In this document: piece by piece, positions 8,034-29,242 of the stretch
Position numbering within the stretch: the stretch's first letter is position 1
How the letters are laid out: each line of letters starts with the position of its first letter
NCBI GenBank assembly: GCA_030019395.1
Contig: JASEES010000012.1
Span: 1 to 34,982, forward strand
From: Methanolinea sp.
GTDB lineage: Archaea > Halobacteriota > Methanomicrobia > Methanomicrobiales > Methanospirillaceae
Length of the DNA: 34,982 nucleotides
Direction of reading: 5' to 3'
The notes under the pieces: model-generated
The model's database searches: none
The model's input: only the letters and a program-made list of their open reading frames with translations
What the model was told of the DNA's origin: nothing
Made by a program: the position numbers and the translations under genes

Positions 8034-9326
8034 TCATTTCGGCCGCATGTATCCCCACTTCTCCAGAGCCCGTGCAAGCTCCCGGGAGGTTTTTGCCTTC
8101 TCGTCGAGGGATACACCCTCCTTCCAGGCCTCGATCGCCTGCATCGTGGCAACTGCCCCCGCCCGTGTCCCGTCGGGATGGCCATGGATGCCTCCGCTCA
8201 CGAGGAGCACGAGGTCACAGCCGTAGATACCGAGGACGTCCGGGACGAGTCCGGGGTGAAGCCCCCCGGAAGAGACCGGGAACGCGGTCTTTATCCTGCC
8301 CCAGTCCTGGTCGAGGAGGATATGGGGGACGGCCTTCACGTGCTGCTCCCGCAGGACGTTGGCGAGGAGGGCCACCTCTCTCTTTGTCCCGGAGAGCTTT
8401 CCCACCGCCGTCCCGGTATGGATCTGGGAAACACCGATCAGGCGCATCAGCTTGGCGAGGAACTGCATGGATATCCCGTGCTTCCTGTTCCGCGAGAAGG
8501 CGGCATGCATGGCCCGGTGCGCATGGATGGCAAGCCCAAGGTCCGAGCAGTAGTCCCGCATCGTCGCGACTGCCGCGGTCCCGGCGACGACAACGTCGAT
8601 CATCGCGTAGTTCCACCCGGACGCTGCAAGCAGGTCGGCCCGCTTCTTCATGGTCTCCGTGTCGGCCGTGATGTTGAGGAAAGCGGACTTCGTCTCCCCT
8701 GTCTCCTGCTCGGCCCGGTCACGCAAACGCGTCATCTCCCGAACCCTCTCGTCGAACCTGTTGAAGGACGTGGAGGTCAGGTTCTCGTCGTCCTTGGCAA
8801 AGTCAAACCCGCCCATCCATGTCTCGTACGCGACCTGTGCGTGTTCCTTCGCGGAAAAACCCACCTTCGGCTTCGGGACCGCCCCTGTCAGGGGCCTGCC
8901 GTGCACCTTCATCATCGTCCGGATACCCTCCATGCCAAAGTGCGGCCCGCGGAAGTGGGAGATGTACGCCTGCGGGAGGGTGACGTCGATGAGCCGGAGG
9001 TTCCGGAGCGCCTTCATCCCGAAGATGTTTCCCGCGATCCCGCTCAGCAGCTGGACGGCATTGCCCTCCTCCCAGAGATCGAGAGGGTAGGAGATCCATG
9101 CGTACTTCCCCTCAATTTCAAAAACGGTTGCCTGGAGGTCCCTCATCCGGTCCGGAAGCGAGGTCAGTGTCGTCCAGGTCCCTGTCGAGCTCTCGGACGC
9201 AATCCTGCCTGCGGCCTCTTCCCTGCTTATCCCTGCCGCCGGTTCGAAATAAAAAAGGGCAACGAGTTCGTTTTCTGCGGGTTCGTAGGACGTGTCCACG
9301 AAGTCCATGTACCAGTCGGTTGCCAT
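8034..9326 (-). CDS. rbcL: Ribulose-1,5-bisphosphate carboxylase, form III
   Basis: The 430-residue archaeal RuBisCO large subunit retains every recognised catalytic position. Lys152 and Lys154 (KPKVG) match Lys175 and Lys177 of the plant enzyme. The carbamylated lysine and metal ligands are Lys178, Asp180 and Glu181 (GGFDFAKDDEN). His268/His270/Arg271/His274 lie in HAHRAMH, loop-6 Lys310 in GTAVGKLSG, and Ser353 in SSGGLH. The enzyme fixes CO2 onto ribulose bisphosphate to give 3-phosphoglycerate. In archaea, form III enzymes serve AMP/nucleoside salvage; in some Methanomicrobiales they work with phosphoribulokinase in the reductive hexulose-phosphate route. Neither AMP phosphorylase, ribose-1,5-bisphosphate isomerase nor phosphoribulokinase is in this window. 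The neighbour upstream is hisD, across a structured spacer. Confidence 0.97.
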   Translation of the reverse strand: MATDWYMDFVDTSYEPAENELVALFYFEPAAGISREEAAGRIASESSTGTWTTLTSLPDRMRDLQATVFEIEGKYAWISYPLDLWEEGNAVQLLSGIAGNIFGMKALRNLRLIDVTLPQAYISHFRGPHFGMEGIRTMMKVHGRPLTGAVPKPKVGFSAKEHAQVAYETWMGGFDFAKDDENLTSTSFNRFDERVREMTRLRDRAEQETGETKSAFLNITADTETMKKRADLLAASGWNYAMIDVVVAGTAAVATMRDYCSDLGLAIHAHRAMHAAFSRNRKHGISMQFLAKLMRLIGVSQIHTGTAVGKLSGTKREVALLANVLREQHVKAVPHILLDQDWGRIKTAFPVSSGGLHPGLVPDVLGIYGCDLVLLVSGGIHGHPDGTRAGAVATMQAIEAWKEGVSLDEKAKTSRELARALEKWGYMRPK

Positions 9327-14907: not shown

Positions 14908-17900
14908 TCACATGAAGTCGGCAAGTCCCTTCTGCTCGGACTTCTCCTGCCCGAACGTCGACTCTATTGCCATGTCGAGGACGGCAACCCTCTGGCGGGT
15001 ATAGTCCGAGATCCTGTAGCGGGTACAGATATCGCGGGAGACTTCGAGGTACTTCTTCACAGAGCCCTCGTGCACCGTCGGGATGATGTTCCCGCCGCAC
15101 CGCGTGCACTTCCCGGCAAGGGGCATCCGCCTGTAACTCGCGTTGCACCTGGTGCACCGGAACTTCTGCCTGGAGTAGGCCGAGAGGTTGCCCATCAGGT
15201 CACGGATGAAGTGGGTTGTGAGTACCCTCTCGGCCACGTCATGCTCGTCGACAGCCCGGATCTTCTCCGCAAGGTCGAGTTCCTTCTGCAGCTTGTCGAT
15301 CATCGACTTCTGCTGGGTGTACATCGACTCGATCGGCCCTGCCGAGATATCCGTCGTGTCGTGGGAGAAGGAAAACCCCTCCATCTGGGCGGGCGTCCCG
15401 AGCCTCCGGCCCACCCTGTCGACGAGTCCCTCCACCTCCCGGGGATGGGCATACCGCAGGGCCGCGAGGTAGAACTCGAGCGGGTAGCCGGACCCGACAT
15501 CGATGTTGTGGCTCTCCTTGTCTATCTCCGCAGGGTCGATCCGCGTCGTGAGGACCAGCGGTGCATCCATCGTCCCGCCCCTCGTCTCCGGGAGGAAAGA
15601 CCGGGAAAAGTTGATCAGCCCGTCGAGGAGGAGCATGATGCAGTCCTCGTCCCCGTCGCACTGCCCCGTGAAGATGCCGTTTGCACAGACCGTGTGCTCG
15701 TCCGTGACCGTGAGGCAGAAGACCCGGTCGTCAGGGCAGGGGATGACGTCCCGCCGGGCAATGTGGTCGGCAAGGACGTTCATCCCGACCATCACCGGCA
15801 CGGCATCCCCCTCTTTGACCTCGACGGCCCGGATCTTGCGCAGGAAACAGACGTCCCAGAGGAGCATCGCGTGGTCGGGGGTGACCACGATGGATCGCCC
15901 CCCTCTTGTCTCGAACCGGATCAGGGCTGCGGGAGCCCGGTGGATCGAGACAGACGTGACCCGCCGGAGGTGAGGTTTTCCCTCGGTGTCCACGGTCCGG
16001 ACGAGGAGCGTTGACTGGGGATCGGAGTAGTACGTGCCGAGCCTGTCTATCCCGGGCCGCGAGAGGTCGAAGTTCTCCGCAACGATCTGCCGGATCGGTT
16101 TCGTGCTCCATTCTTTTCCGTCGAATGTCTCGATCAGGGTATCCCCGTGGAAACAGTTCCTCCGCTTGGCCGCGTGGAAGAACGGGTGGGCGTACCCGAC
16201 GTTCGCCCGGGAGAACCCCACGATCCGGGCGAGGACGCCGGCACTCGTGTGGGGCGCAAGCCCGATGACGAGGTGGCCGAGGAGGTCCTCCCGCGAGCTG
16301 ACCCTGTAGAAGGGGGAAAGGCCGTAGCACTTCTCGAGGAGCTCATCGATGAACTGGGCGACCCGGACCATGTACCCGGCACAGGAGTCGGAGACGAGGA
16401 TGTCCTGGGGACGCAGTTCGACCACCTGCAGGGGTGACGTGAGGGGTTTTCCATCGATATCCGCATCGTACCCCAGTTCTCTCAGCTTGTCGGGAGACAC
16501 GCCGATTTCGGCGGGCCGGATGTGGGTTAAGGGCAGGTCAATCATGTCAAAGCGGACGGTGCCGTCCTTGAAGACGAAGATATCACGGGCCGCCCGGAGG
16601 ATGCCCTTCTCGATTGGCTCGACCGTCTTTTCCCGCGATATCAGCCCTCGGACACCCTTCACGAGGGTGATGGCGTTCTCGCGGAGGCCCAGTCTCTCCA
16701 CGGCTGCCATGTACTCCTGCCTGACGTTGAGTGTTGTCGTCGCCGAGCAGGTGGCAGGGACGTGGCAGGAAGGGCAGGTACCGCTCCCGATCTCCCGCCT
16801 GCACCGGGGACACGTGTACACCGGCTCCGTGTGGCTGCCGCAGGCACACCTGTTCCGGAACGTCTCGGCCCCGCAGGAGGGACAGCGGCGTCTCCCCGTC
16901 TCGATGGTGATCACGCCGCCGTCCATGTTGGGCTGGGGTGCGTGGGCCTGTGCTTCCTGGAACGACCGCCTGTTCCCCCCTGCGTCGCCGAGGGGGAAGA
17001 GACCGTGGGGAGGGGGGTTCATCTTCCGGGGACGTGACTTGCCCGGCCGCCCCATGCGGCCGCCAATCCGCGTCCCGGCACGGGACCGCATGGGGAGGCC
17101 CGAGAGGTGGCTGACGAGTGCGAGCGTGTCACTGCCGCCGGGCACACTGTCCCACGCCGGGCGTCTCTTCAGTTTCAGGTCGAGGCCGAGGCACGCGAGG
17201 AAGACGAGGTACTCGCTGATGCATATCTGGCCCTCCCTCACGCGGTGGGGGAGGAGGATCTCCTCGAGGAGGTACTTGATCCGGGGGTCCGGCGGGAGGA
17301 CGAGAATGCCGTGGCGAATTTCACCCTTCTCCGAGACGTAATCGGCGATTTCACGCACCTCGGCGGGCGAGATATCGTCCCAGAGGAAGGTGAAATCGGG
17401 GTGGAGAAATGCCCCCTCGAAACACTGGGCGATCGCCTCTTCCTCGGTCTTAGGCCGCTCCTTTCCCCCCTCCTGGCACCACCACTCGTGGCAGTAGGCA
17501 GGCGGGACGAGGACGTGGTTGTTCTCGAGGAATTCGCCGTACCCGATGAGGATCTCGCCGACGTCGAGGATGCGGTCGACATCGTCCTTCAGCCTGACCG
17601 CAACCTCGGCGTCGTCGATGCGGAGGACATCGCCGTTCTTCAACCGGACCGTCGGCCCCTCTATCGTGTCCACCGGGACGATCCCGGCAGCCTTCCCCGG
17701 GCGCTCGATCTTCATCTGGGTCCCGACCGCGAGGTAGTCGCCGAGGATGTGCATCGTCGCCGGGGAAAGGCCTGCTGCGGCAAACCCCGTGTTCCGCGAA
17801 CGCCCGTACCGGAGCCGGAACCCCCCCTTCCTCATCGGGTAGGCAAAGACCGGGCGTCCGCCGATCAGGTCGCGGAGGTACTTGTCCCGTGGCGCAATCG

Positions 17901-18789
17901 CTCCTCCATTCTCCCCTTCCCCCGGCTTTGCCACGCCCCTGATCAGCTCCTCGAGCCAGTCCCAGCCATCCATCGAGAGGGCCCGGACGTACCGGAGGAC
18001 CTTGGGGGCCTTGAGGGCGAGACCCTCGGCGAGGACGAGGGCCATCCCGCCGCGCACCGCGTTCGTTTCGACCCGCTCGAGGTTCCGGTACCCGCTCACC
18101 TCGTCCTGTTCAGTCCCCTCCCCGTCGATGCAGACCGGGCAGTTCTGGACGATGAGGCGAATCTCGTGGTCGGACGGGAGGTACTGGAGGTTCATGATGG
18201 AGTTGTACTGGCGGATCTCCTCGATGTAGCGTTCCACCTCCTCGGGCCGGGGAATGTACCTGTTCATCCCGAGTTCCCTCCGGACGAAATCGCCGACGAG
18301 GACGGAGAGCGCCTGCGCAGTGCCGCCCGCACTCCTGATGGGTCCTGCGTAGTAGATTTTGAGGTACTCGGAGCCGTCGTCGTTTTTTCCCGTTCCCACC
18401 TTCGCGATCCCCTCCGTCGGGGCGGCCACCACGCCTTCCGTGAGGATTGCCATCGCCGTCCGGATGGCATGGTCGAGCACTTCCTCGCGGCTCTGCTCGC
18501 CGAAACGCCGCTGGACAAAATCAAGCCCGATGCGGAGTGCAGCCTCCTCGCGGGACATCTGGCCCTCGAGTTCCCTGATCCGGGAAGCAATTCCCGGTAT
18601 ACCGAGCAGTGCCTCGACCCGGTCTGCAAGGTCGCTTGCGATCGGGATCTCGACCCCGGTCCGCGGGTCCAGGCCGAGTGCCCGGGCCTTTCCCGCGACC
18701 TCCATTGCGCGCGAGAGGCCTTCCTCGAGGCCGGCAAGGTACTTCTCCATTGCAGGGGAGCAGTGGATCATCACCTTCTCTCTTGCCAC
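14908..18789 (-). CDS. polC: DNA polymerase D large (catalytic) subunit DP2, intein-containing precursor
   Basis: The precursor has 1293 residues; removing the intein leaves 1128, a normal DP2 size. DP2 is the polymerising subunit of the archaeal replicative PolD and pairs with DP1 (polB), which is not here. The N-terminal region carries the family's [23 protein letters not shown] stretch (135-157). Cys-rich zinc modules are seen at C636/C639/C648/C650, C660/C663/C672/C675, and near the C-terminus at C1212/C1215/C1228/C1231. The catalytic acidic motif DGDED (1045-1049) directly follows the intein. The start is a GTG at 18789; a downstream ATG (M7) is possible. It lies 114 nt downstream of the HEAT/MscS cluster with its own TATA-like boxes. 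Confidence 0.97.
15661..16155 (-). other. Mini-intein within PolD DP2
   Basis: This 165-residue insert (precursor residues 879-1043) separates HAAKRRN from CDGDED, which are contiguous in intein-less DP2 proteins. Block A starts at Cys879 ([13 protein letters not shown]). Block B has the TPDH motif at 970-973. Block F is [16 protein letters not shown] and block G is IFTGQ followed by Cys1044. No LAGLIDADG endonuclease domain is present, and the space between blocks B and F is short. The last residue is Gln rather than the usual Asn, and the penultimate residue is Gly rather than His. Gln-ending inteins are known at this same DP2 site in other archaea, so the element is probably still able to splice. 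Confidence 0.93.
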
Positions 18790-18903: not shown

Positions 18904-19404
18904 TCACCCGGGCCCGGACATGAGGGCATCGATCCCCTCTTCGCCCATCTGCCAGAGTATCATTGCCGCGTACTGGCGCATGTCCGGATCGGCGGAGCCG
19001 AGCGCGGCCCGGAGAGCGGGAACCGCGGCTTTCCCGACGCGGCACAGGGCCTGCGCAAAGAACCCGCGGGCAGAGGGGTCTTTCGTGGAGAGGGCTGCGA
19101 TGAGAGGCCGCACGGCAGGCCCGCCGATGTGGCCGAGGGCGGCTGCTGCATACCGCCGGAAGCGGACGTCACTGTTCTTCCCGATGGCTTCGATCAGGGG
19201 ATCGATACCCGGCGGGCCTATCCGGGCAAGGGCGACGGCTGCATACCAGCGGGCATCGTCGTTGTCAGTCTCTGCCATGAACCGGACAAGTGCGGGAACC
19301 GCAGTCCCGCCTGCCGCTGCGAGGGTCTTTACGGCACTTCTCCTCGCGGCAAGGTCGCCCTGCGCGAGCACCCGGACCTGCTCCGCGATCTCCTCTTCCC
19401 TCAC
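18904..19404 (-). CDS. Soluble HEAT-repeat protein
   Basis: The 166-residue protein consists almost entirely of about five HEAT-like repeats of some 31 residues, the PBS-lyase/EZ-HEAT type (for example WYAAVALARIG, RRYAAAALGHIGG and FFAQALCRVGK helices with PLI/PAL second helices). Such repeats form alpha-solenoid binding surfaces; there is no catalytic motif. The start is the GTG at 19404, which overlaps the TGA of the upstream MscS gene as GTGA, with GGGGGCG 8 nt before it. A longer frame reaching 19572 would overlap the channel gene by 172 nt and has no repeat signal. It is the last gene of the four-gene cluster. Confidence 0.85.
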   Translation of the reverse strand: MREEEIAEQVRVLAQGDLAARRSAVKTLAAAGGTAVPALVRFMAETDNDDARWYAAVALARIGPPGIDPLIEAIGKNSDVRFRRYAAAALGHIGGPAVRPLIAALSTKDPSARGFFAQALCRVGKAAVPALRAALGSADPDMRQYAAMILWQMGEEGIDALMSGPG

Positions 19405-20249
19405 CGGATATCGCCCCCGCCGTGCGCATGGGACACCTCGATCCTTGCCCCCGGCGCGATTGTCACGACCCTCTGGGGATAGGGTATCTCGATTCCCGCC
19501 TCCTCGAGCGCCTTCTTGATCGTCCAGAGCATCTCGGTCCTCACCGACCACCAGACGCGGGACGGCGCCCATATGAACACCCTGATGATCACGGCCGACT
19601 CGGCGAGGCTGTCCACGAAGACGCTCGGGGCCGGGTGTGCGAGCACGAAGGGGTGGTCCTCGAGCAGCGACCGGATGATCCGGATGGCCGTCTCCGCATC
19701 GGACCGGTAACTGATGCCGATCGAGTACTCGAACCTCCTTGCGACGTTGGCAACGTAATTGGTTATTTCCGAGGTGAATACCTTCTCGTTCGGGACACGG
19801 ACATAGACCCCCTCGTACGTCTTGATGATCGTCGAGAGGACCCGGATCTGGTCGACGGTCCCGCTCACTTCCCCGATGGTGACGTTGTCCCCTGGTTTCA
19901 TCGGGCGTTCCGCGATGATGAAGAGCCCGGACCCGAAGTTCGAGACGATCCTCTGCCCCGCGAAGGCCGCGACAAGGCCGATCGTCCCCCCGACCACCAC
20001 CATGTCAGCGATGTTGATATCGAAGCGGGGGAGCGCGGCGTACACCCCGACGATGATGATGGCCGCCTGGATGACCTTGACGAGCTTGTCGAGCTCGACG
20101 GGATCGACCCGGTCGCTGAATGCCTTTTTGAGGTAGATTGCGACGATCCGGGAGATAATGTAAACCACGAAGACAGCTATGGCAAAGACGAGGAGATCGA
20201 GGAGGGTGACCGTGCCAATGACAGGTATTGAGAGCGATTCAAAGACCAT
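19401..20249 (-). CDS. MscS-family mechanosensitive channel
   Basis: The 282-residue protein has three transmembrane helices (about 16-38, 58-78, 82-112). TM3 is the Gly/Ala-rich pore helix, and after it comes the family's FIIAERPMKPGDNVTIGEVSG beta-domain entry (about 110-130), then the cytoplasmic alpha/beta vestibule. It should open under membrane tension to release small solutes during hypo-osmotic shock. The length is like E. coli MscS (286). The ATG at 20249 has AGAAGGG upstream and lies 8 nt after the DUF432-like gene's stop; the end overlaps the HEAT gene by 4 nt. The N-terminal extension to 20378 would overlap the upstream gene and is rejected. Confidence 0.94.
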   Translation of the reverse strand: MVFESLSIPVIGTVTLLDLLVFAIAVFVVYIISRIVAIYLKKAFSDRVDPVELDKLVKVIQAAIIIVGVYAALPRFDINIADMVVVGGTIGLVAAFAGQRIVSNFGSGLFIIAERPMKPGDNVTIGEVSGTVDQIRVLSTIIKTYEGVYVRVPNEKVFTSEITNYVANVARRFEYSIGISYRSDAETAIRIIRSLLEDHPFVLAHPAPSVFVDSLAESAVIIRVFIWAPSRVWWSVRTEMLWTIKKALEEAGIEIPYPQRVVTIAPGARIEVSHAHGGGDIR

Positions 20250-20257
20250 GGCCCTTC

Positions 20258-21025
20258 TCAGTCCCCCACCCCGTATTCCATCAGGTAACTTGGTTTTTCG
20301 GGAACAAGACTCTTTTTTGTCGGGAAAATCCGGATGGCCTCCTCCATGCCCTCCCGTGGCGGTGTCCTGGTGACCCACGTCTCGCCCAGAATACGGGAGT
20401 AGACCATCATCTCTGCGGACATGGCGGCATGGGGGCCATAGAAGATCCGCAGGGAGGGACTCTCAAAGACTGCCCGGGACACCCATACCCAGTCCTTTCC
20501 CGTGTTCCTGATTGCAAGTGCAAGGATGCCCTCCTGCAGGGGGTCCACCGGGGGAGGTTCGTGACTGACCCCCGTCTCCACGTGCCGCGTGATCACGCCC
20601 TTTTCCGGGGTCCCGTACAGCGAGTACTTGGGCTTTGCGAGAGAGAATACGTCGATGAGGGTATAACTGCCTTCCGAGCCGGAAAAGACACCTATCTCGA
20701 CGGGGAACGTGAGAAAGACGGTCACCTCGGAGAGGGGTCCTATCGCGATCGGGGTAAAATGGAACTCGATTGTATTCGTGACCTCCTGGGGAAGGTTGAC
20801 GGGTTCCACCGGGTTGATGGTGATCGTCCCGCCGGAGAACCCGAGCCTCCTTTCCACGCGGCCGGACGGCGCTACCCTCTCGTAGAGGGTAAACTGTCCT
20901 TCCGTCCTTGTCTCCACCGTTATCCCGCTCTCCCCGAGCCGGAACGGGATCCCGTACCTCCCGAACACGGAGAAGAGATCGGGTCTCCGGGAACATATAC
21001 CTGACCTGCTGCCGGTGCCACTCAC
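20258..21025 (-). CDS. DUF432-like archaeal protein
   Basis: The 255-residue protein matches, by recognition, the archaeal DUF432 pattern: an FGRYGIPF entry, TINPVEPVNLPQEVTN (about 69-84), FPVEIGVFSG, LIDVFSLAKPKYSLYGTPEKGVITR (about 122-146) and a C-terminal YLMEYG. It is all soluble, with no membrane helix, and its function is unknown. In several archaea DUF432 genes neighbour MscS channels, as here. The GTG at 21025 overlaps the previous gene's TGA (GTGA), which supports coupled translation. The family-like part begins only at residue 20, so the GTG at 20968 is an alternative start giving 236 residues. No active-site residues can be proposed. Confidence 0.78.
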   Translation of the reverse strand: MSGTGSRSGICSRRPDLFSVFGRYGIPFRLGESGITVETRTEGQFTLYERVAPSGRVERRLGFSGGTITINPVEPVNLPQEVTNTIEFHFTPIAIGPLSEVTVFLTFPVEIGVFSGSEGSYTLIDVFSLAKPKYSLYGTPEKGVITRHVETGVSHEPPPVDPLQEGILALAIRNTGKDWVWVSRAVFESPSLRIFYGPHAAMSAEMMVYSRILGETWVTRTPPREGMEEAIRIFPTKKSLVPEKPSYLMEYGVGD

Positions 21026-22260
21026 GGCCCGGCAGGTCTCTCCCCGGGCCCTTCGTGCCGTTCCCCTGCATCGATGACGGAAAGGATGAACTCGCGCGAT
21101 TTCCTGTCTGCCCCGGACAGGAGGGGAACAAACCCCTTCAGCAGCTTTTGGTTCGGGATATCCCTGATCGCCTGGAACACCCCTGCCCTTTCTGCCATCG
21201 GGGCGGCGGACAGGTAGAGGAGGATGTGCCTGTACCCTTCCTCGCCGTGCTGCATCAGGGCCTCGAGGGCTGCCGACCGGACAATCGCGTCCGGGTCCCC
21301 GAGTGCCCGCGTCAGGTCGTCGAGGGCGGCAGGGTCGCGTATCTTTCGAAGTGCGAGCACTGCACCCTTCCGGACGGGTGGGGGGCCGTTTGCAAGGGCA
21401 AGGCGGAGGAGCGGCGCCGCCCTGATCCCAAATTCCCCAAGGGCGTAAGCGGCCCTGCTCTGGACAAAACGGTCCGAATCCCCGAGGAGCTCGATGAGGG
21501 GGGAGATGGCACGGTCATCCCCGATCTCGCCGAGCGCGATCGCTGCTTTCCACCGCACGTCCTCGTCGGGGTGGTGGAGTGCACCGATGAGGGGGACGAC
21601 TGCCGGTTCCCCGATCCGGGCGAGGGCTTCCGCAGCCTTCCACCTCACCCCGGAATACCTGTCAGCGGTCAGGACTTCCATCAGGGGTGCAACGCCCGAG
21701 GGTTCGCGCAGCTCGCCCAATGCTTCGGCCGCTGCATACTGGACGGCCGGATCCTTGTGGCCAAGGGCCCGGACGAGGCCCGGAACATCCCTCTCCACGC
21801 GCATCCGGTCCACGTTGGGAGGGCCAATGTGCCAGAGGAGGGCATCTCCCCGCGGGAACGCTCCCCTCCGGGCAGTCGCCGTCCGGGCTTCCGCATCCCC
21901 CGTGCCGGCCATTGCCTCGCGATGCTTCCTGCGCGCCGAATCGGAGACAAGACCGATAACGAGCGAGACAAGGACGAACATCCCGGCCCGGATCGAGGAG
22001 TCGGGACCGATTGTCCCGGAAAGGAGGGCCGTGTCTGCAAGGTAGAGGGCCGAGAGGATGAGACTGACGGGAAGTCCCCTGATACCCATCCATGCCGCCG
22101 CGAGGACGATGGGAACGTAGAAGAAGTGCGAATAGACCGTTTCCATGCCAAGGCCAACGTGCACGACGAGTTCGAGGATGACTGATACGGCGACGAGAAA
22201 CACGATGATGGCGATCTTCGGGCGGTCAAGTCCTTCGCGGGCCGGGCGGAGAAGGTTCAT
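21022..22260 (-). CDS. Membrane-anchored HEAT-repeat protein
   Basis: The 412-residue protein has an N-terminal membrane domain of four helices (about 15-37, 44-60, 64-80, 92-108). It includes the SHFFYVPIVLAAAWMGIRG stretch typical of the sensor module found on many Methanomicrobiales histidine kinases. A basic linker (110-150) and about seven HEAT repeats (155-395) follow, for example RWKAAEALARIGEPAVVPLI. There is no kinase, GGDEF or PAS domain, so the output is presumably protein binding. The ATG at 22260 has no ribosome site but a TATA-like box 29 nt upstream, suggesting a leaderless transcript. The in-frame extension to 22584 lies upstream of that promoter and overlaps the AcnX gene. 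It is the first gene of the HEAT/DUF432/MscS/HEAT cluster. Confidence 0.85.
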   Translation of the reverse strand: MNLLRPAREGLDRPKIAIIVFLVAVSVILELVVHVGLGMETVYSHFFYVPIVLAAAWMGIRGLPVSLILSALYLADTALLSGTIGPDSSIRAGMFVLVSLVIGLVSDSARRKHREAMAGTGDAEARTATARRGAFPRGDALLWHIGPPNVDRMRVERDVPGLVRALGHKDPAVQYAAAEALGELREPSGVAPLMEVLTADRYSGVRWKAAEALARIGEPAVVPLIGALHHPDEDVRWKAAIALGEIGDDRAISPLIELLGDSDRFVQSRAAYALGEFGIRAAPLLRLALANGPPPVRKGAVLALRKIRDPAALDDLTRALGDPDAIVRSAALEALMQHGEEGYRHILLYLSAAPMAERAGVFQAIRDIPNQKLLKGFVPLLSGADRKSREFILSVIDAGERHEGPGERPAGP

Positions 22261-22540
22261 CGAGTCAGGGTGGTACAGGCCCTCTGATAAATCCTGCGGA
22301 ACAGAGAAGAGAACCCCGCCGTCATTCCAGGCGGGTAGAGACCGGGTGTGCTTTTCAACCTCCCGGAGGTCCGGGTTTGTCAATCTCAAAATGCCGGTTT
22401 TTTCGGACGCGATGCGTGATACTGCCGCCGCGACGGTGCCTTGAGCGGTGGCGGGCGACGGGTCCCTGCACGCGGTTCTTACCACCCATCGGGGAGAGCC
22501 ACGATCCCAAAAAAAGAGTCCGGGAAGTGGGGGGCGGGGG
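22261..22540. other. Intergenic region upstream of the HEAT/MscS cluster
   Basis: The 280-bp stretch lies between the aconitase-X stop and the first cluster gene. The only supported element is the TATA-like box at 22285-22294. The reading frames that cross it have no family signal. A short T-tract near 22396-22401 on the plus strand is unremarkable. Confidence 0.45.
22285..22294 (-). promoter_or_regulatory. TATA-like box of the HEAT/DUF432/MscS/HEAT cluster
   Basis: The minus strand reads GGATTTATCA, centred 29 nt before the ATG at 22260. That distance fits a transcript starting at or next to the start codon, in line with the absence of a ribosome site. Confidence 0.5.
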
Positions 22541-23734
22541 TCACCGGTTCTTCCCGGAACGCCCGGTTGTTTCTCCTGTCGCAACCCCGATGCACTCTTC
22601 CGTTGTCCCGAGGCGCACCGCTGCCCCGCACATGCCCGGCACGTAGGAGAATGCCTTGCCCGAGTTCACCATGATCGCCCGGAACCGCTCCATCGCGGGG
22701 GAGACGACCATGCACGTGTCTGCAAACACGCGGGCACCGCTCGCCTCGATAACGGCAACATCGTCGCGGTGCCTCTCGATAACTCCCCGGGCGGCAAACA
22801 CGTAACAGGGGATCTTCGTCACTTTTCCTTCCAAAAGACGTGCAATCGTGCCGAGTTCCTGGGGAGAACAGTGGGGACAGCCCAGGGCAACTGCCTCGAC
22901 GGGGATCTCCTCCATGATCGTCTCTATCTCCTTTCCCTCGACGGTGATGACCTCGAGGTCGCCGGTTGAAAAGGAGAAGATCCGGGCCTCGGGGGTGATG
23001 CCGGCCACGTGAAAGAGTGCGACTGCACCGGATGCTGCCATTGCCGCGCCGAGTGCCTTCAGGTTGTCCCTGCGGGGAGAGATCCCTTCGAAGAGGGGTA
23101 TCCTACCCCCGACGAGTTTTCCCACGTGGTACCCGAGAGCCCCGAAAAGGGCAGGATCGGAGAGCGACGCGCCTCCCTCCACCCGCACAACGATCTCGGG
23201 ACGGCGTTGGGAAACGAGGTGCAGGCCGTACTCGGGCGTCCTCCCCATTATCGCGGCGGCAAGGGCTCCCGGTCCCCCCTCCCGGTTCGTCCGTGCACCG
23301 ATCACCGAGTTTGCGTACACAACGGCTGATGATTCCGACCAGGCCAGGTGGTCGCCGTACTGCGTCACGTAGAGGTAATACGGCGTGCAGGTGCACTCGA
23401 GGGCCAGGCCAAGCTTCCGGTAGGCAGCGATGACCTCTTCCTGGGCGCGTGCAAACCCGGGGTCGATACCCATCTCCTGCCACCGCTCCCTGTCCATCCC
23501 CACGGGGTTGAGGACGGTCGGGACAGCGACCCTCGCGTCCAGCTGCTGCAGCCATTCGAGGCCATACCTCCCGATCGTCTTGAAGGACGCCCCGCTCACC
23601 TGGGCACTCCGGATGGGAATGAGACGCTCTGCCCCGTAGACCTTCCCGAGAGCGATGAGGATTTCGAGCATCCGGGCCCGGGTCTCACCCTGCTCCCCGG
23701 CAAGGATGGCCTCCTCCTCGGACGATAGTCTCAT
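22541..23734 (-). CDS. Aconitase X catalytic domain, phosphomevalonate dehydratase large subunit
   Basis: The 397-residue protein is the large (catalytic) part of aconitase X, formerly DUF521. In archaea it dehydrates (R)-5-phosphomevalonate to trans-anhydromevalonate 5-phosphate in the modified mevalonate pathway, giving isoprenoids for membrane lipids. The enzyme carries an Fe-S cluster. Conserved cysteine contexts are ECTCTPYY (113-120), GCPHCSP (285-291), FADTCMV (337-343) and PGMCGAAV (366-373). The family entry is IRSAQVSGASFKTIG (41-55). The ATG (23734) has GGGGGAGA immediately before it and is 8 nt after the UbiD-type gene, whose product catalyses the next step. The required small swivel subunit (DUF126, usually about 130 residues) is not in the window. 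Confidence 0.9.
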   Translation of the reverse strand: MRLSSEEEAILAGEQGETRARMLEILIALGKVYGAERLIPIRSAQVSGASFKTIGRYGLEWLQQLDARVAVPTVLNPVGMDRERWQEMGIDPGFARAQEEVIAAYRKLGLALECTCTPYYLYVTQYGDHLAWSESSAVVYANSVIGARTNREGGPGALAAAIMGRTPEYGLHLVSQRRPEIVVRVEGGASLSDPALFGALGYHVGKLVGGRIPLFEGISPRRDNLKALGAAMAASGAVALFHVAGITPEARIFSFSTGDLEVITVEGKEIETIMEEIPVEAVALGCPHCSPQELGTIARLLEGKVTKIPCYVFAARGVIERHRDDVAVIEASGARVFADTCMVVSPAMERFRAIMVNSGKAFSYVPGMCGAAVRLGTTEECIGVATGETTGRSGKNR

Positions 23735-23742
23735 TCTCCCCC

Positions 23743-24978
23743 TTACCAGCCCGCACGCGTAAACTCGTGCTCGTGGCCAAGGACCATTGTCGCGTCCACG
23801 CCCACCTTCACGTTCGTCCCGTCAGCCATCCGGCACGGGTCAAGGGACGACCCGCGGGCACCGGGAATGATGAGGATGTCCCGGTCTCCCCTCACGCGCG
23901 TGGCGATGGCATACTCGACCTCGGCAGGGTCGGCCGGGTCGATGTCCTCGTCCACCACGACGACGTGCTTGAGGGACGTGTGTGCCGCGAGGGCCGCCAG
24001 GATCGCGTTCTTCGCGTCGCCCTGCGTGCTCTTGCGGATCTGGATGACCGCGTGGAAGTAACCGCATCCCCCCGTCGTGAGGACAACGTTCCTGACGGTC
24101 GTCACGGCAGAGACCGCACGGAAGATGACGGGTTCGTACGGCACCCCCATCAGGATGCGGTGCTCGTGTCCTCCCGGGAGGATGCTGTGGTAGATCGCGT
24201 CCGGCCGGGTATACATGCCCGTGAACCGGATGACCGGCTGCATCCTGACGCTGTCGTACGTGCCCGTGATGTCCACGAAAGGCCCTTCCTCTGCTGTCTC
24301 GGCCCCGATGAACCCTTCGAGCACGATTTCTGCCTCGGGGACACAGACCCCGTTCCGGCACCGGCGGACCCTCACTTCCCCGCCCATGAGTTCGGCAGCA
24401 AAGGCTAGTTCCCTGCCCTTCGGGACGCGTGTGCAGCTTGCAAACGTGACTGCAGGGTGGACTCCGATGGCAACTGCCACCGGCAGCACGTCACCGGCCG
24501 CGAGGGCTTCCCTGTGCATGGTGAACGTATGCCTGCCCTCGACGAGCCGGGCTGCGACCCTGTCCGGGCCGAGGACGAGCATCCGGTGGATCGATGCGTT
24601 CTCGACTCCCCCGTAGGCAGAAAAAACGATCCCTGCCGTGATGTACCGGCCTGCATCGCCTGGGAAAAACTTCATGACGGGGAGGCGGGAGAGGTCGGCC
24701 TTTCCCATGGGGAGCGGGTCTTCCCGCACGATCCTGCCCTCGTAGGAAGCCCGGGCCAGGGTCTCTGCGATCCTGTTTTCGTCCACTCCCAGTGCGAGGC
24801 CGAGTGCCTTCCTCGTTGCCGTAAGGTTCATTGCGGCACGGCCGCCGGGAAGGTCGTGGAAGAGGAGGAGGGAGTCCGTCCGGCTCGCCATCCGGGGTGC
24901 ACCGAACTCCCCTTCCGGGCATTCCTCGACATCGATGACCGCCCCCTTCTCCCTCATCAGTTCGATGAATTCACGCAT
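23743..24978 (-). CDS. UbiD-family decarboxylase, probably anhydromevalonate phosphate decarboxylase
   Basis: The 411-residue protein is a UbiD-type enzyme that should use prenylated FMN. Visible family marks are NASIHRM (127-133, Asn for metal and prFMN phosphate binding, Arg132), the acidic residues in EAEIVLEGFI and EEGPFVDITG (about 215-240), and the C-terminal GDRDILIIPGARGSSLDP. It is shorter than E. coli UbiD (497) and matches the archaeal group that decarboxylates trans-anhydromevalonate 5-phosphate to isopentenyl phosphate. The assignment rests on its position directly before the aconitase-X gene, with an 8-nt gap. GGGAGATCC precedes the ATG. The prFMN synthase UbiX is not nearby. 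Confidence 0.88.
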   Translation of the reverse strand: MREFIELMREKGAVIDVEECPEGEFGAPRMASRTDSLLLFHDLPGGRAAMNLTATRKALGLALGVDENRIAETLARASYEGRIVREDPLPMGKADLSRLPVMKFFPGDAGRYITAGIVFSAYGGVENASIHRMLVLGPDRVAARLVEGRHTFTMHREALAAGDVLPVAVAIGVHPAVTFASCTRVPKGRELAFAAELMGGEVRVRRCRNGVCVPEAEIVLEGFIGAETAEEGPFVDITGTYDSVRMQPVIRFTGMYTRPDAIYHSILPGGHEHRILMGVPYEPVIFRAVSAVTTVRNVVLTTGGCGYFHAVIQIRKSTQGDAKNAILAALAAHTSLKHVVVVDEDIDPADPAEVEYAIATRVRGDRDILIIPGARGSSLDPCRMADGTNVKVGVDATMVLGHEHEFTRAGW

Positions 24979-25095
24979 GGATCTCCCGCCTTCCTTCCAT
25001 GCGGTAAGGTGTGACCTCCCGTCAGATAAACCTGCAAGCCTTCGCGGGGGGAGGGGTTCCTCCCGGCGCGGGGCCCGGCAGAAAGGGCGGGTTTT

Positions 25096-25539
25096 TCAGG
25101 TGCGCGGCGGGTTGTAGAACCGGTACCGGAACTGGGCTTCTTCCAGCGCCCGGGCGCTCTCCGGGTCGAGTTCCCGCCGGGCTGCCTGCACGATCGCGTT
25201 GAGGATGTTTTTCTCTTTCAGGACGTCGTAGTCGCCCTCGCGGGTCTCGTTCAAAAAATCGAGGAGTTCGTTGACGTGCCCGAGTACTTCGGGACCGGCA
25301 ACGAGGTTGACACGGTTCAGGACGAACGCGAGGTTCCTCTTGGCCTGGGAAAGGGCATATGCGTCGCCGCCCGCGACCGTGAGGCGGGTTACCGCGCAGA
25401 GAAAATCGTTGTATACCTTCAGTTTCTGCCTGTTTTGCACGAGCCGGAGTTCCCTGCTCTTCGCGTAGAGATATGCACAGGAGGTGATGGCGGCGACTGC
25501 CACCACGCCTGCAATGACCATCGTCCAGTATTCGATCAC
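25096..25539 (-). CDS. Small single-pass membrane protein, unknown
   Basis: The 147-residue protein starts at a GTG (25539) with GGGGGTC a few nt upstream and a TATA-like box about 37 nt upstream. One transmembrane helix spans about residues 7-27. The remainder is a charged, helical cytoplasmic region, probably coiled-coil (LNRVNLVAGPEVLGHVNELLDFLNE). No known motif is seen. It precedes the UbiD-type gene by 117 nt on the same strand, so it could be co-transcribed, but nothing in its sequence links it to isoprenoid synthesis. Confidence 0.72.
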   Translation of the reverse strand: MIEYWTMVIAGVVAVAAITSCAYLYAKSRELRLVQNRQKLKVYNDFLCAVTRLTVAGGDAYALSQAKRNLAFVLNRVNLVAGPEVLGHVNELLDFLNETREGDYDVLKEKNILNAIVQAARRELDPESARALEEAQFRYRFYNPPRT

Positions 25540-25570
25540 ACTGACCCCCGAGGACTCCTTTTAGGCACTT

Positions 25571-25582
25571 TTCGTATTTGAG
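25571..25582 (-). promoter_or_regulatory. TATA-like box for the small membrane protein gene
   Basis: The minus strand contains CTCAAATACGAA, centred about 37 nt before the GTG at 25539, giving a leader of about 12 nt that would include GGGGGTC. Confidence 0.35.
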
Positions 25583-25748
25583 CATTCTTTTTTCGCATCA
25601 AGACCACTCCGGGGTTTTCCAGCCTTCATGCCCGACTGCAGGGAAGGAGGGGACGGTCGCCATGAATGGCGCACCCGTGGTTTTCATGCCATGTGCCTCT
25701 GTCCGGGAAAAGAACCGTGTGATATCTTCCGTATGGGCACGGGGACAC

Positions 25749-27985: not shown

Positions 27986-29242
27986 ATGAGTATCTTTCGA
28001 TCTCTCCGGGGAGCACTGGGAAGGGAGGGGGACAAGTCCCCCGACGAGGCAGAGAAGGAACGGGTGGAGAGCGTTCGCAACGCGCTTGCATACGGGGACA
28101 TGGAAGCGCGGTGGAACGCGATCCGGGCCGCCGGGGAACTCGGGGACGCATTCATCGATCCGCTCATCAATGCCCTGAACGATGAACACTGGATCATCCG
28201 CCGGGGGGCAGCCCAGACCCTTGCAAAGATTGGTGCACCCGCGGTTCCGCCTCTCATCGAGATGCTGGCCTGCGAGGACGAGTCCGTCAGGCGGGAAGTC
28301 GTCCAGGCTTTCATCCTCATCGGGGATACGTCGGTCGAGTCCCTGATCCGGGCGCTCTCGCGCGACCAGCCCGCCATCCGGGAGGGTGCTGCCCAGATAC
28401 TCGGCGAGATGGGTGTGCAGAGCGCAGTCGGACCGCTCGTGGAGGCCTTGAAAGACAAAGAGCCCCGCGTCCGGAAGCAGGCGGCAATCGCCCTCAAGAT
28501 GATAGGGCACCCGGATGCCATATCCCCCCTGATCACCCTCCTCGGGGACGAGTCGGGATACGTCCGCATCGCCGCTGCCGAGGCCCTCTGTTCCCTCGGT
28601 GACCGGGCAATCGGGCCGATGATCGCTGCACTTGCCCATCCCCAGCCGGAACTCCGCCAGAGGGCCGGGCTCGCCCTCGCAGCGATCGGCAGCCCGGCAG
28701 TGGAGCCCCTCATCGCGGCACTCGACCACGAGGACCCCCTCGTCAGGCAGGGTGCTGCAGGAGTGCTCGGCAGGATAGGCGATTCGCGCGCAGTCCCGGG
28801 CCTCGTCCGCCTCCTGGGTGACCCGGTCAGGAATGTCCGCCAGGAGTGTGTCAAGGCTCTCTCCACGCTCGGGTACCCTGCCATATCCCCGCTCGTCTCC
28901 GCGTTCCGCGAGGGTGACATGGTCATCCGGAACTGCGCCATGGAAGCGCTCTGGCTCATCGGTGGTCCCGCGGTACGCCCCCTGCTCGACCTCCTCGACG
29001 ACTCAAACCCTGACGTGCGGAGGAGGACCGCCCTCCTCCTCGGCGAGATGGGGTATCCCACTGCCATCGAGGCACTGACAAGGGTCCTCGGTGACCAGGT
29101 TCCGGCAGTCAGGAGGGAGGCATTCGAGGCCCTCGAGAAGATCCGGAAAAAGCAGCCCGAAGGGACCCCTCCTCTGCCAAAGGCTGAAAAGGGCGGGAAT
29201 GAACCGGCCCGGAATTCTTCACCCAGCGCAAAGAAGGCCTGA
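27986..29242 (+). CDS. HEAT-repeat protein (PBS-lyase type repeats)
   Basis: The 418-residue soluble protein is nearly all HEAT repeats. About eleven units of 31 residues run from about 35 to 385, each with a pattern like VRREVVQAFILIGDTSVESLI. The last 30 residues are a charged, probably disordered tail. It has no catalytic domain and should be a binding scaffold; relatives of the EZ-HEAT class chaperone or modify bilin and iron-sulfur proteins in other lineages, but nothing ties this one to such a role. GGAG lies about 9 nt before the ATG. The cofD gene ends 45 nt upstream on the same strand, so the two may be co-transcribed. The minus-strand frames across it are shadows. Confidence 0.88.
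   Translation: MSIFRSLRGALGREGDKSPDEAEKERVESVRNALAYGDMEARWNAIRAAGELGDAFIDPLINALNDEHWIIRRGAAQTLAKIGAPAVPPLIEMLACEDESVRREVVQAFILIGDTSVESLIRALSRDQPAIREGAAQILGEMGVQSAVGPLVEALKDKEPRVRKQAAIALKMIGHPDAISPLITLLGDESGYVRIAAAEALCSLGDRAIGPMIAALAHPQPELRQRAGLALAAIGSPAVEPLIAALDHEDPLVRQGAAGVLGRIGDSRAVPGLVRLLGDPVRNVRQECVKALSTLGYPAISPLVSAFREGDMVIRNCAMEALWLIGGPAVRPLLDLLDDSNPDVRRRTALLLGEMGYPTAIEALTRVLGDQVPAVRREAFEALEKIRKKQPEGTPPLPKAEKGGNEPARNSSPSAKKA

Follow-up and report, generated by a model that had tools for sequence, protein, structure and literature searches.

MscS channels are textbook examples of channels that need membrane tension alone. In E. coli, the soluble protein FtsZ binds the cytoplasmic domain of MscS, a precedent for a soluble partner (PMC4440785), and an MscS-type channel gene of 'Ca. 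Methanoperedens' lies beside other genes in the salt-induced kamA-ablB-ynaI cluster (PMC11337218). Here we analyzed a 34,982-nt stretch of Methanolinea sp. DNA (contig JASEES010000012.1, positions 1 to 34,982; hereinafter designated the window), in which four adjacent open reading frames (ORFs), all on the minus strand, encode a membrane HEAT-repeat protein (hereinafter designated HEATA), a DUF432 protein, an MscS-family channel and a soluble HEAT-repeat protein (hereinafter designated HEATB). An earlier reading of the sequence (the original prediction) took them for a single operon whose HEAT products gate or assemble the channel. We favor, with moderate confidence, a different arrangement, in which the locus would comprise two interleaved modules, DUF432 with MscS and HEATA with HEATB, and DUF432 would serve as a dedicated cytosolic accessory subunit of one MscS subfamily.

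21022..22260, minus strand: HEATA, 412 aa; membrane (sensor-like) domain at about residues 12-110, HEAT solenoid at about residues 150-400; Pfam HEAT_2, 2.5e-53
20258..20968, minus strand: DUF432 protein, 236 aa, GTG start; soluble and, in the predicted model, all beta; PF04254, 2.9e-36
19401..20249, minus strand: MscS-family channel of the DUF432-linked subfamily, 282 aa; PF00924, 2.3e-19, and PF21082, 1.3e-16
18904..19404, minus strand: HEATB, soluble HEAT protein of five repeats, 166 aa; HEAT_2, 2.4e-19; 4-nt overlap with the MscS stop

The four gene identities are those originally proposed, and the Pfam E-values of all four products indicate that they are not due to chance. All other Methanolinea-genus loci on contigs long enough to show it keep the HEATA-DUF432-MscS-HEATB order, and the same gene context as in the window is present in named records too.

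FtsZ, a soluble protein that binds the MscS cage (PMC4440785), is not reserved for the channel and its gene does not lie with that of MscS, whereas DUF432 is dedicated to its MscS and encoded beside it. The partners of the channel gene in the kamA-ablB-ynaI cluster make a compatible solute, and DUF432 is not mentioned in the main text of that paper (PMC11337218). With E. coli MscS and its family, the window channel shares the beta and C-terminal alpha-beta domains, an ungapped pore helix and equivalents of Q112 and N117, but it belongs to a separate archaeal subfamily that is inherited only with DUF432 and carries F96 and R100 in place of L109 and G113. The DUF432 protein matches PF04254 over its full length (124.8 bits, profile positions 1-123 of 123, over the curated cut-off) and has all of the conserved motifs (NPVEP, FP.EIGVF, K[YF][ST]LYG and the C-terminal ME[YW]G). 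The family record is without a function; the present analysis provides DUF432 with a strict partner, which forms a monophyletic subfamily of channels, with a promoter and with an all-beta model. HEATA and HEATB have the repeat type of HEAT_2 or PBS-lyase-type HEAT proteins, but score far under the phycobilin lyase cut-offs and form an order-specific pair beside polC, the gene for the DNA polymerase II large subunit (DP2). Literature searches returned no paper on DUF432, COG2430 or PF04254 and none joining MscS, HEAT repeat and archaea. The DUF432-MscS pair is, as a unit, undescribed in the literature searched, and the pairing offers a testable function for a family without one.

DUF432 and its MscS subfamily are inherited as a pair

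DUF432 was surveyed at 101 loci, 99 of which have contig room downstream. In 98 of these 99, the next gene downstream, in the same orientation, is MscS; the gap is at most 30 nt in 94 of the 96 measured, and the genes overlap in 56. At the sole exception (G033; L087 4782-5497), DUF432 is split by a frameshift, the 5 kb downstream of it hold no MscS remnant, and the linked MscS subfamily was not found in the genome; either the partner decayed after loss of the channel or the events took the reverse order. When 29 MscS proteins of 12 genomes were placed in a tree, all 13 linked to DUF432 grouped in one clade, apart from the 16 others (support 99/98). The linked subfamily is present in all ten DUF432-bearing genomes tested (240-468 bits) and in none of 36 DUF432-less genomes (best score 195 bits), though nearly all of the latter carry other MscS-like genes. 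The pairing had been expected to have precedent in archaea, but it is much stricter than supposed, and its linkage and co-occurrence are as tight as would be expected of a dedicated channel accessory subunit.

The pair is shared across the whole archaeal phylum. Among the control genomes, that of the genetically tractable methanogen Methanosarcina acetivorans also matched DUF432. HEAT-adjacent and stand-alone pairs fall on one DUF432+MscS tree, with both kinds occurring within two genera. Some genomes carry two pairs each (G019, L077/L076; G044, L103/L104; G039, L096/L097; G042, L100/L101), and in G019, G044 and G039 one pair lies beside HEAT genes and the other alone, indicating that the pair was duplicated as a unit. 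No third gene is conserved beside DUF432-MscS within the gene set tested, and no DUF432 was found in plasmids. Comparative gene content thus strongly supports the view that DUF432 and MscS would act as one functional unit. If so, an MscS subfamily never found without one soluble protein would amount to a natural two-part tension channel.

Hydropathy reveals no transmembrane (TM) segment in DUF432, and an AlphaFold2 (AF2) model built with 16 sequences is all beta (predicted local distance difference test, pLDDT, 83; predicted template modeling score, pTM, 0.79). Searching this model against PDB and BFVD gave no match at E <= 0.001, with best TM-scores of about 0.2; the fold may be new, or the model may have flaws. 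As an accessory subunit, DUF432 would bind the channel heptamer at its cytoplasmic cage and, from there, set gating, closing or inactivation. The proposed binding site, the cage, is the one large surface that the channel exposes to the cytosol.

The channel itself belongs to the MscS family. Its residues 20-274 align with solved MscS structures at 1e-32, through the pore helix, and its domains score above the Pfam cut-offs for PF00924 (69.7 bits; cut-off 20.2) and PF21082 (61.3 bits; cut-off 21.0) and slightly below that for PF21088 (TM2/3; 21.2 bits; cut-off 23.1). Hydropathy peaks at residues 14-32, 51-74 and 80-102 correspond to three TM helices with a pore-lining TM3. In the pore (residues 96-100, window position about 19950), F96 takes the place of E. 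coli L109 and R100 that of the kink residue G113, a position held by R/K in Methanolinea and by S/N in other subfamily members. Charged residues at the Q112/G113 positions alter gating kinetics in MSL1 (PMC7757850), and by analogy the charged kink residue R100 suggests that unaided gating may differ from that of E. coli MscS.

Two other roles for DUF432 would account for the same linkage. It could be an enzyme or a ligand sensor, whose product or ligand is exported or answered by the channel with no contact between the two proteins. The conserved motifs could form a binding site, and strict co-occurrence would fit a pathway too, but DUF432 has no similarity to enzymes by sequence or fold and no third conserved gene accompanies it in the set tested; we consider this role unlikely. 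Alternatively, DUF432 could be an assembly or folding chaperone of this MscS subfamily and not part of the working channel. It is dedicated, soluble and encoded just before its putative client by overlapping or nearly overlapping genes, an arrangement usual for co-translational partners; other MscS channels, however, assemble without a helper in E. coli, and we regard a chaperone as quite unlikely. Possible but doubtful is a bolder version of the accessory-subunit reading, a two-component mechanosensitive channel in which this MscS subfamily would work only with a dedicated, cytosolic, all-beta DUF432 subunit of new fold, which would gate or inactivate it on a cytoplasmic signal and could, in Methanomicrobiales, be coupled in turn to HEATA, as membrane sensor, and HEATB.

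Gene junctions and promoters

Across loci, the DUF432 N-terminus is conserved as [M/V][F/Y]G, which in the window corresponds to the GTG at 20968 and places the true start about 57 nt downstream of the one assumed earlier. Relatives such as L064 and L072 have a stop 5 codons upstream of this conserved start. The spacing between HEATA and DUF432 is therefore about 53 nt, and the GTGA overlap originally described at this junction, which rested on the wrong DUF432 start, is an artefact of taking the longest ORF. The other two junctions are as described: DUF432 and MscS are separated by 8 nt, and MscS and HEATB share a 4-nt GTGA overlap. HEATB overlaps MscS by 4-14 nt in 11 of 12 genus loci.

Two promoter elements stand out by their conservation when genus loci are compared with shuffles:

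22286..22291, minus strand: TATA-like element of HEATA, TTTATC
20994..20999, minus strand: TATA box of DUF432-MscS, TATATG, at about -27 of the conserved DUF432 start

A promoter element at about -27 is expected for a leaderless archaeal message. Of 13 genus loci, 12 have the DUF432 TATA box, where shuffles give 1.6 (maximum 6 in 500 shuffles); among the 32 loci that have HEATA upstream, the count is 26, where shuffles give 4.1. For HEATA, the best TATA-like 8-mer lies at -31..-23 in 9 of 11 genus loci (1.4 in shuffles). No TATA box of its own was found for HEATB (2 of 12 genus loci; 1.4 in shuffles). The one TATA-like box to which all four genes had been assigned thus gives way to separate elements for HEATA and DUF432, and a one-promoter four-gene operon was rejected on the conserved internal TATA box and the corrected DUF432 start. 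The simplest reading of these elements is that there would be two transcripts, HEATA and DUF432-MscS-HEATB. In the Methanolinea genus, HEATB may be co-made with DUF432-MscS, because it overlaps the MscS stop region and lacks a separate promoter. The idea that the genes are made together is thus probably right for HEATB and the channel; a single promoter is not supported. In the two-module arrangement, the Methanolinea pair, with its own promoter, would lie between the HEAT genes, and the DUF432-MscS transcript would end with HEATB.

HEATA and HEATB belong to the DP2 neighborhood

The cluster is flanked upstream by AcnX and UbiD genes and downstream by an intein-bearing DP2 gene:

14908..18789, minus strand: DNA polymerase II large subunit DP2 (polC) with intein, conserved neighbor of HEATB and HEATA

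The link of the HEAT genes was followed in 106 Methanomicrobiales genomes of at least 95% completeness, with HEATB orthologues cleanly set apart from other HEAT proteins (at least 141 bits versus at most 119 bits). Of the 96 genomes of the order with HEATB, 88 have it no more than 6 kb upstream of DP2, whereas just 39 have it no more than 3 kb downstream of DUF432. DUF432 is elsewhere while HEATB remains with DP2 in 43 genomes; HEATB is kept without any DUF432 in 10, and 9 DUF432-less genomes keep it by DP2. HEATA and HEATB are directly adjacent in 12 fetched DP2 loci without DUF432-MscS. A search of 32 genomes from outside the order, among them 20 with DUF432-MscS, gave no HEATB orthologue. 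The DP2 control, together with pairs lacking HEATB outside the order, identifies the HEAT genes as a separate module: HEATA and HEATB are an order-specific module of the DP2 neighborhood, independent of DUF432-MscS.

On the same two observations, the HEAT proteins were rejected as obligatory channel partners. The original prediction had cast HEATA and HEATB as partners of the channel and had proposed a search for conserved DUF432, MscS and HEAT gene order in archaeal genomes; the comparison of relatives made here does not support it. Because DUF432 and MscS are inherited together while the HEAT genes stay in the DP2 neighborhood, the channel probably has one dedicated partner, not three. Two modules that are unrelated can share one tight cluster, and relatives and promoters tell them apart.

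Some observations weigh against a separation into two modules, and they would fit a four-protein complex in which HEATA senses and HEATA and HEATB scaffold or gate MscS. HEATB is translationally coupled to MscS in the Methanolinea genus through the gene overlap. A seven-genome group (g12 and g7) is without both DUF432 and HEATB, so that a looser HEAT link is conceivable, and in two genomes (G015 and G054) HEATB accompanies DUF432-MscS at a site away from DP2. Three families have the HEATA-DUF432-MscS-HEATB order and two lineages have DUF432-MscS-HEATB, and HEATA has a sensor-kinase-type membrane domain. Set against such a complex are the 43 and 9 genomes in which the HEAT genes accompany DP2 and not the pair, the 20 DUF432-bearing genomes outside the order whose pair has no HEATB orthologue, and the separate promoters; a four-protein complex is improbable, the least likely of the alternatives considered. 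On a DP2 tree with weak support, the junction between DUF432-MscS and the HEAT genes changes 6 times, by what may be gain or loss. One further point counts against the accessory-subunit role itself: as no solved or viral fold matches the DUF432 model, the fold gives no functional clue.

HEATA protein and neighboring genes

In the AF2 model of HEATA (pLDDT 84.7), the solenoid is confident. The membrane domain, predicted earlier to have four helices, has three or four: hydropathy gives four windows, two of them overlapping, and the model gives three long membrane helices. The sensor-like character attributed to this domain is supported by its match to the N-termini of multi-PAS, histidine-kinase-like proteins (L079 and L101). 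A KdpD-type (DUF4118) identity was rejected, with 17.3 bits against a cut-off of 28.4; sensor-kinase membrane domains match better. From these similarities, HEATA looks like a membrane sensor with the HEAT scaffold as its putative output. In some f5 genomes, a 622-aa histidine-kinase-like protein with a related membrane domain is encoded between HEATB and DP2 (L189 1852-3717, L190 4735-6600). The window also encodes a third HEAT-repeat protein (27986-29242, plus strand; 418 aa; HEAT_2, 2.4e-73), on the opposite strand and 5.7 kb from the cluster.

The DP2 intein (within 14908-18789, minus strand) is marked by TIGR01445 and TIGR01443 matches. The AcnX and UbiD genes (22541-24978, minus strand) are separated by 8 nt and remain close to HEATA and DP2 in many relatives; we take them to be the likely phosphomevalonate dehydratase and decarboxylase steps of the archaeal mevalonate pathway. 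Upstream of them lies a gene for a conserved 187-aa protein with no Pfam match (25022-25585). Elsewhere in this methanogen window, a RuBisCO large-chain homologue is encoded at 8034-9326 on the minus strand (PF00016, 1.3e-85).

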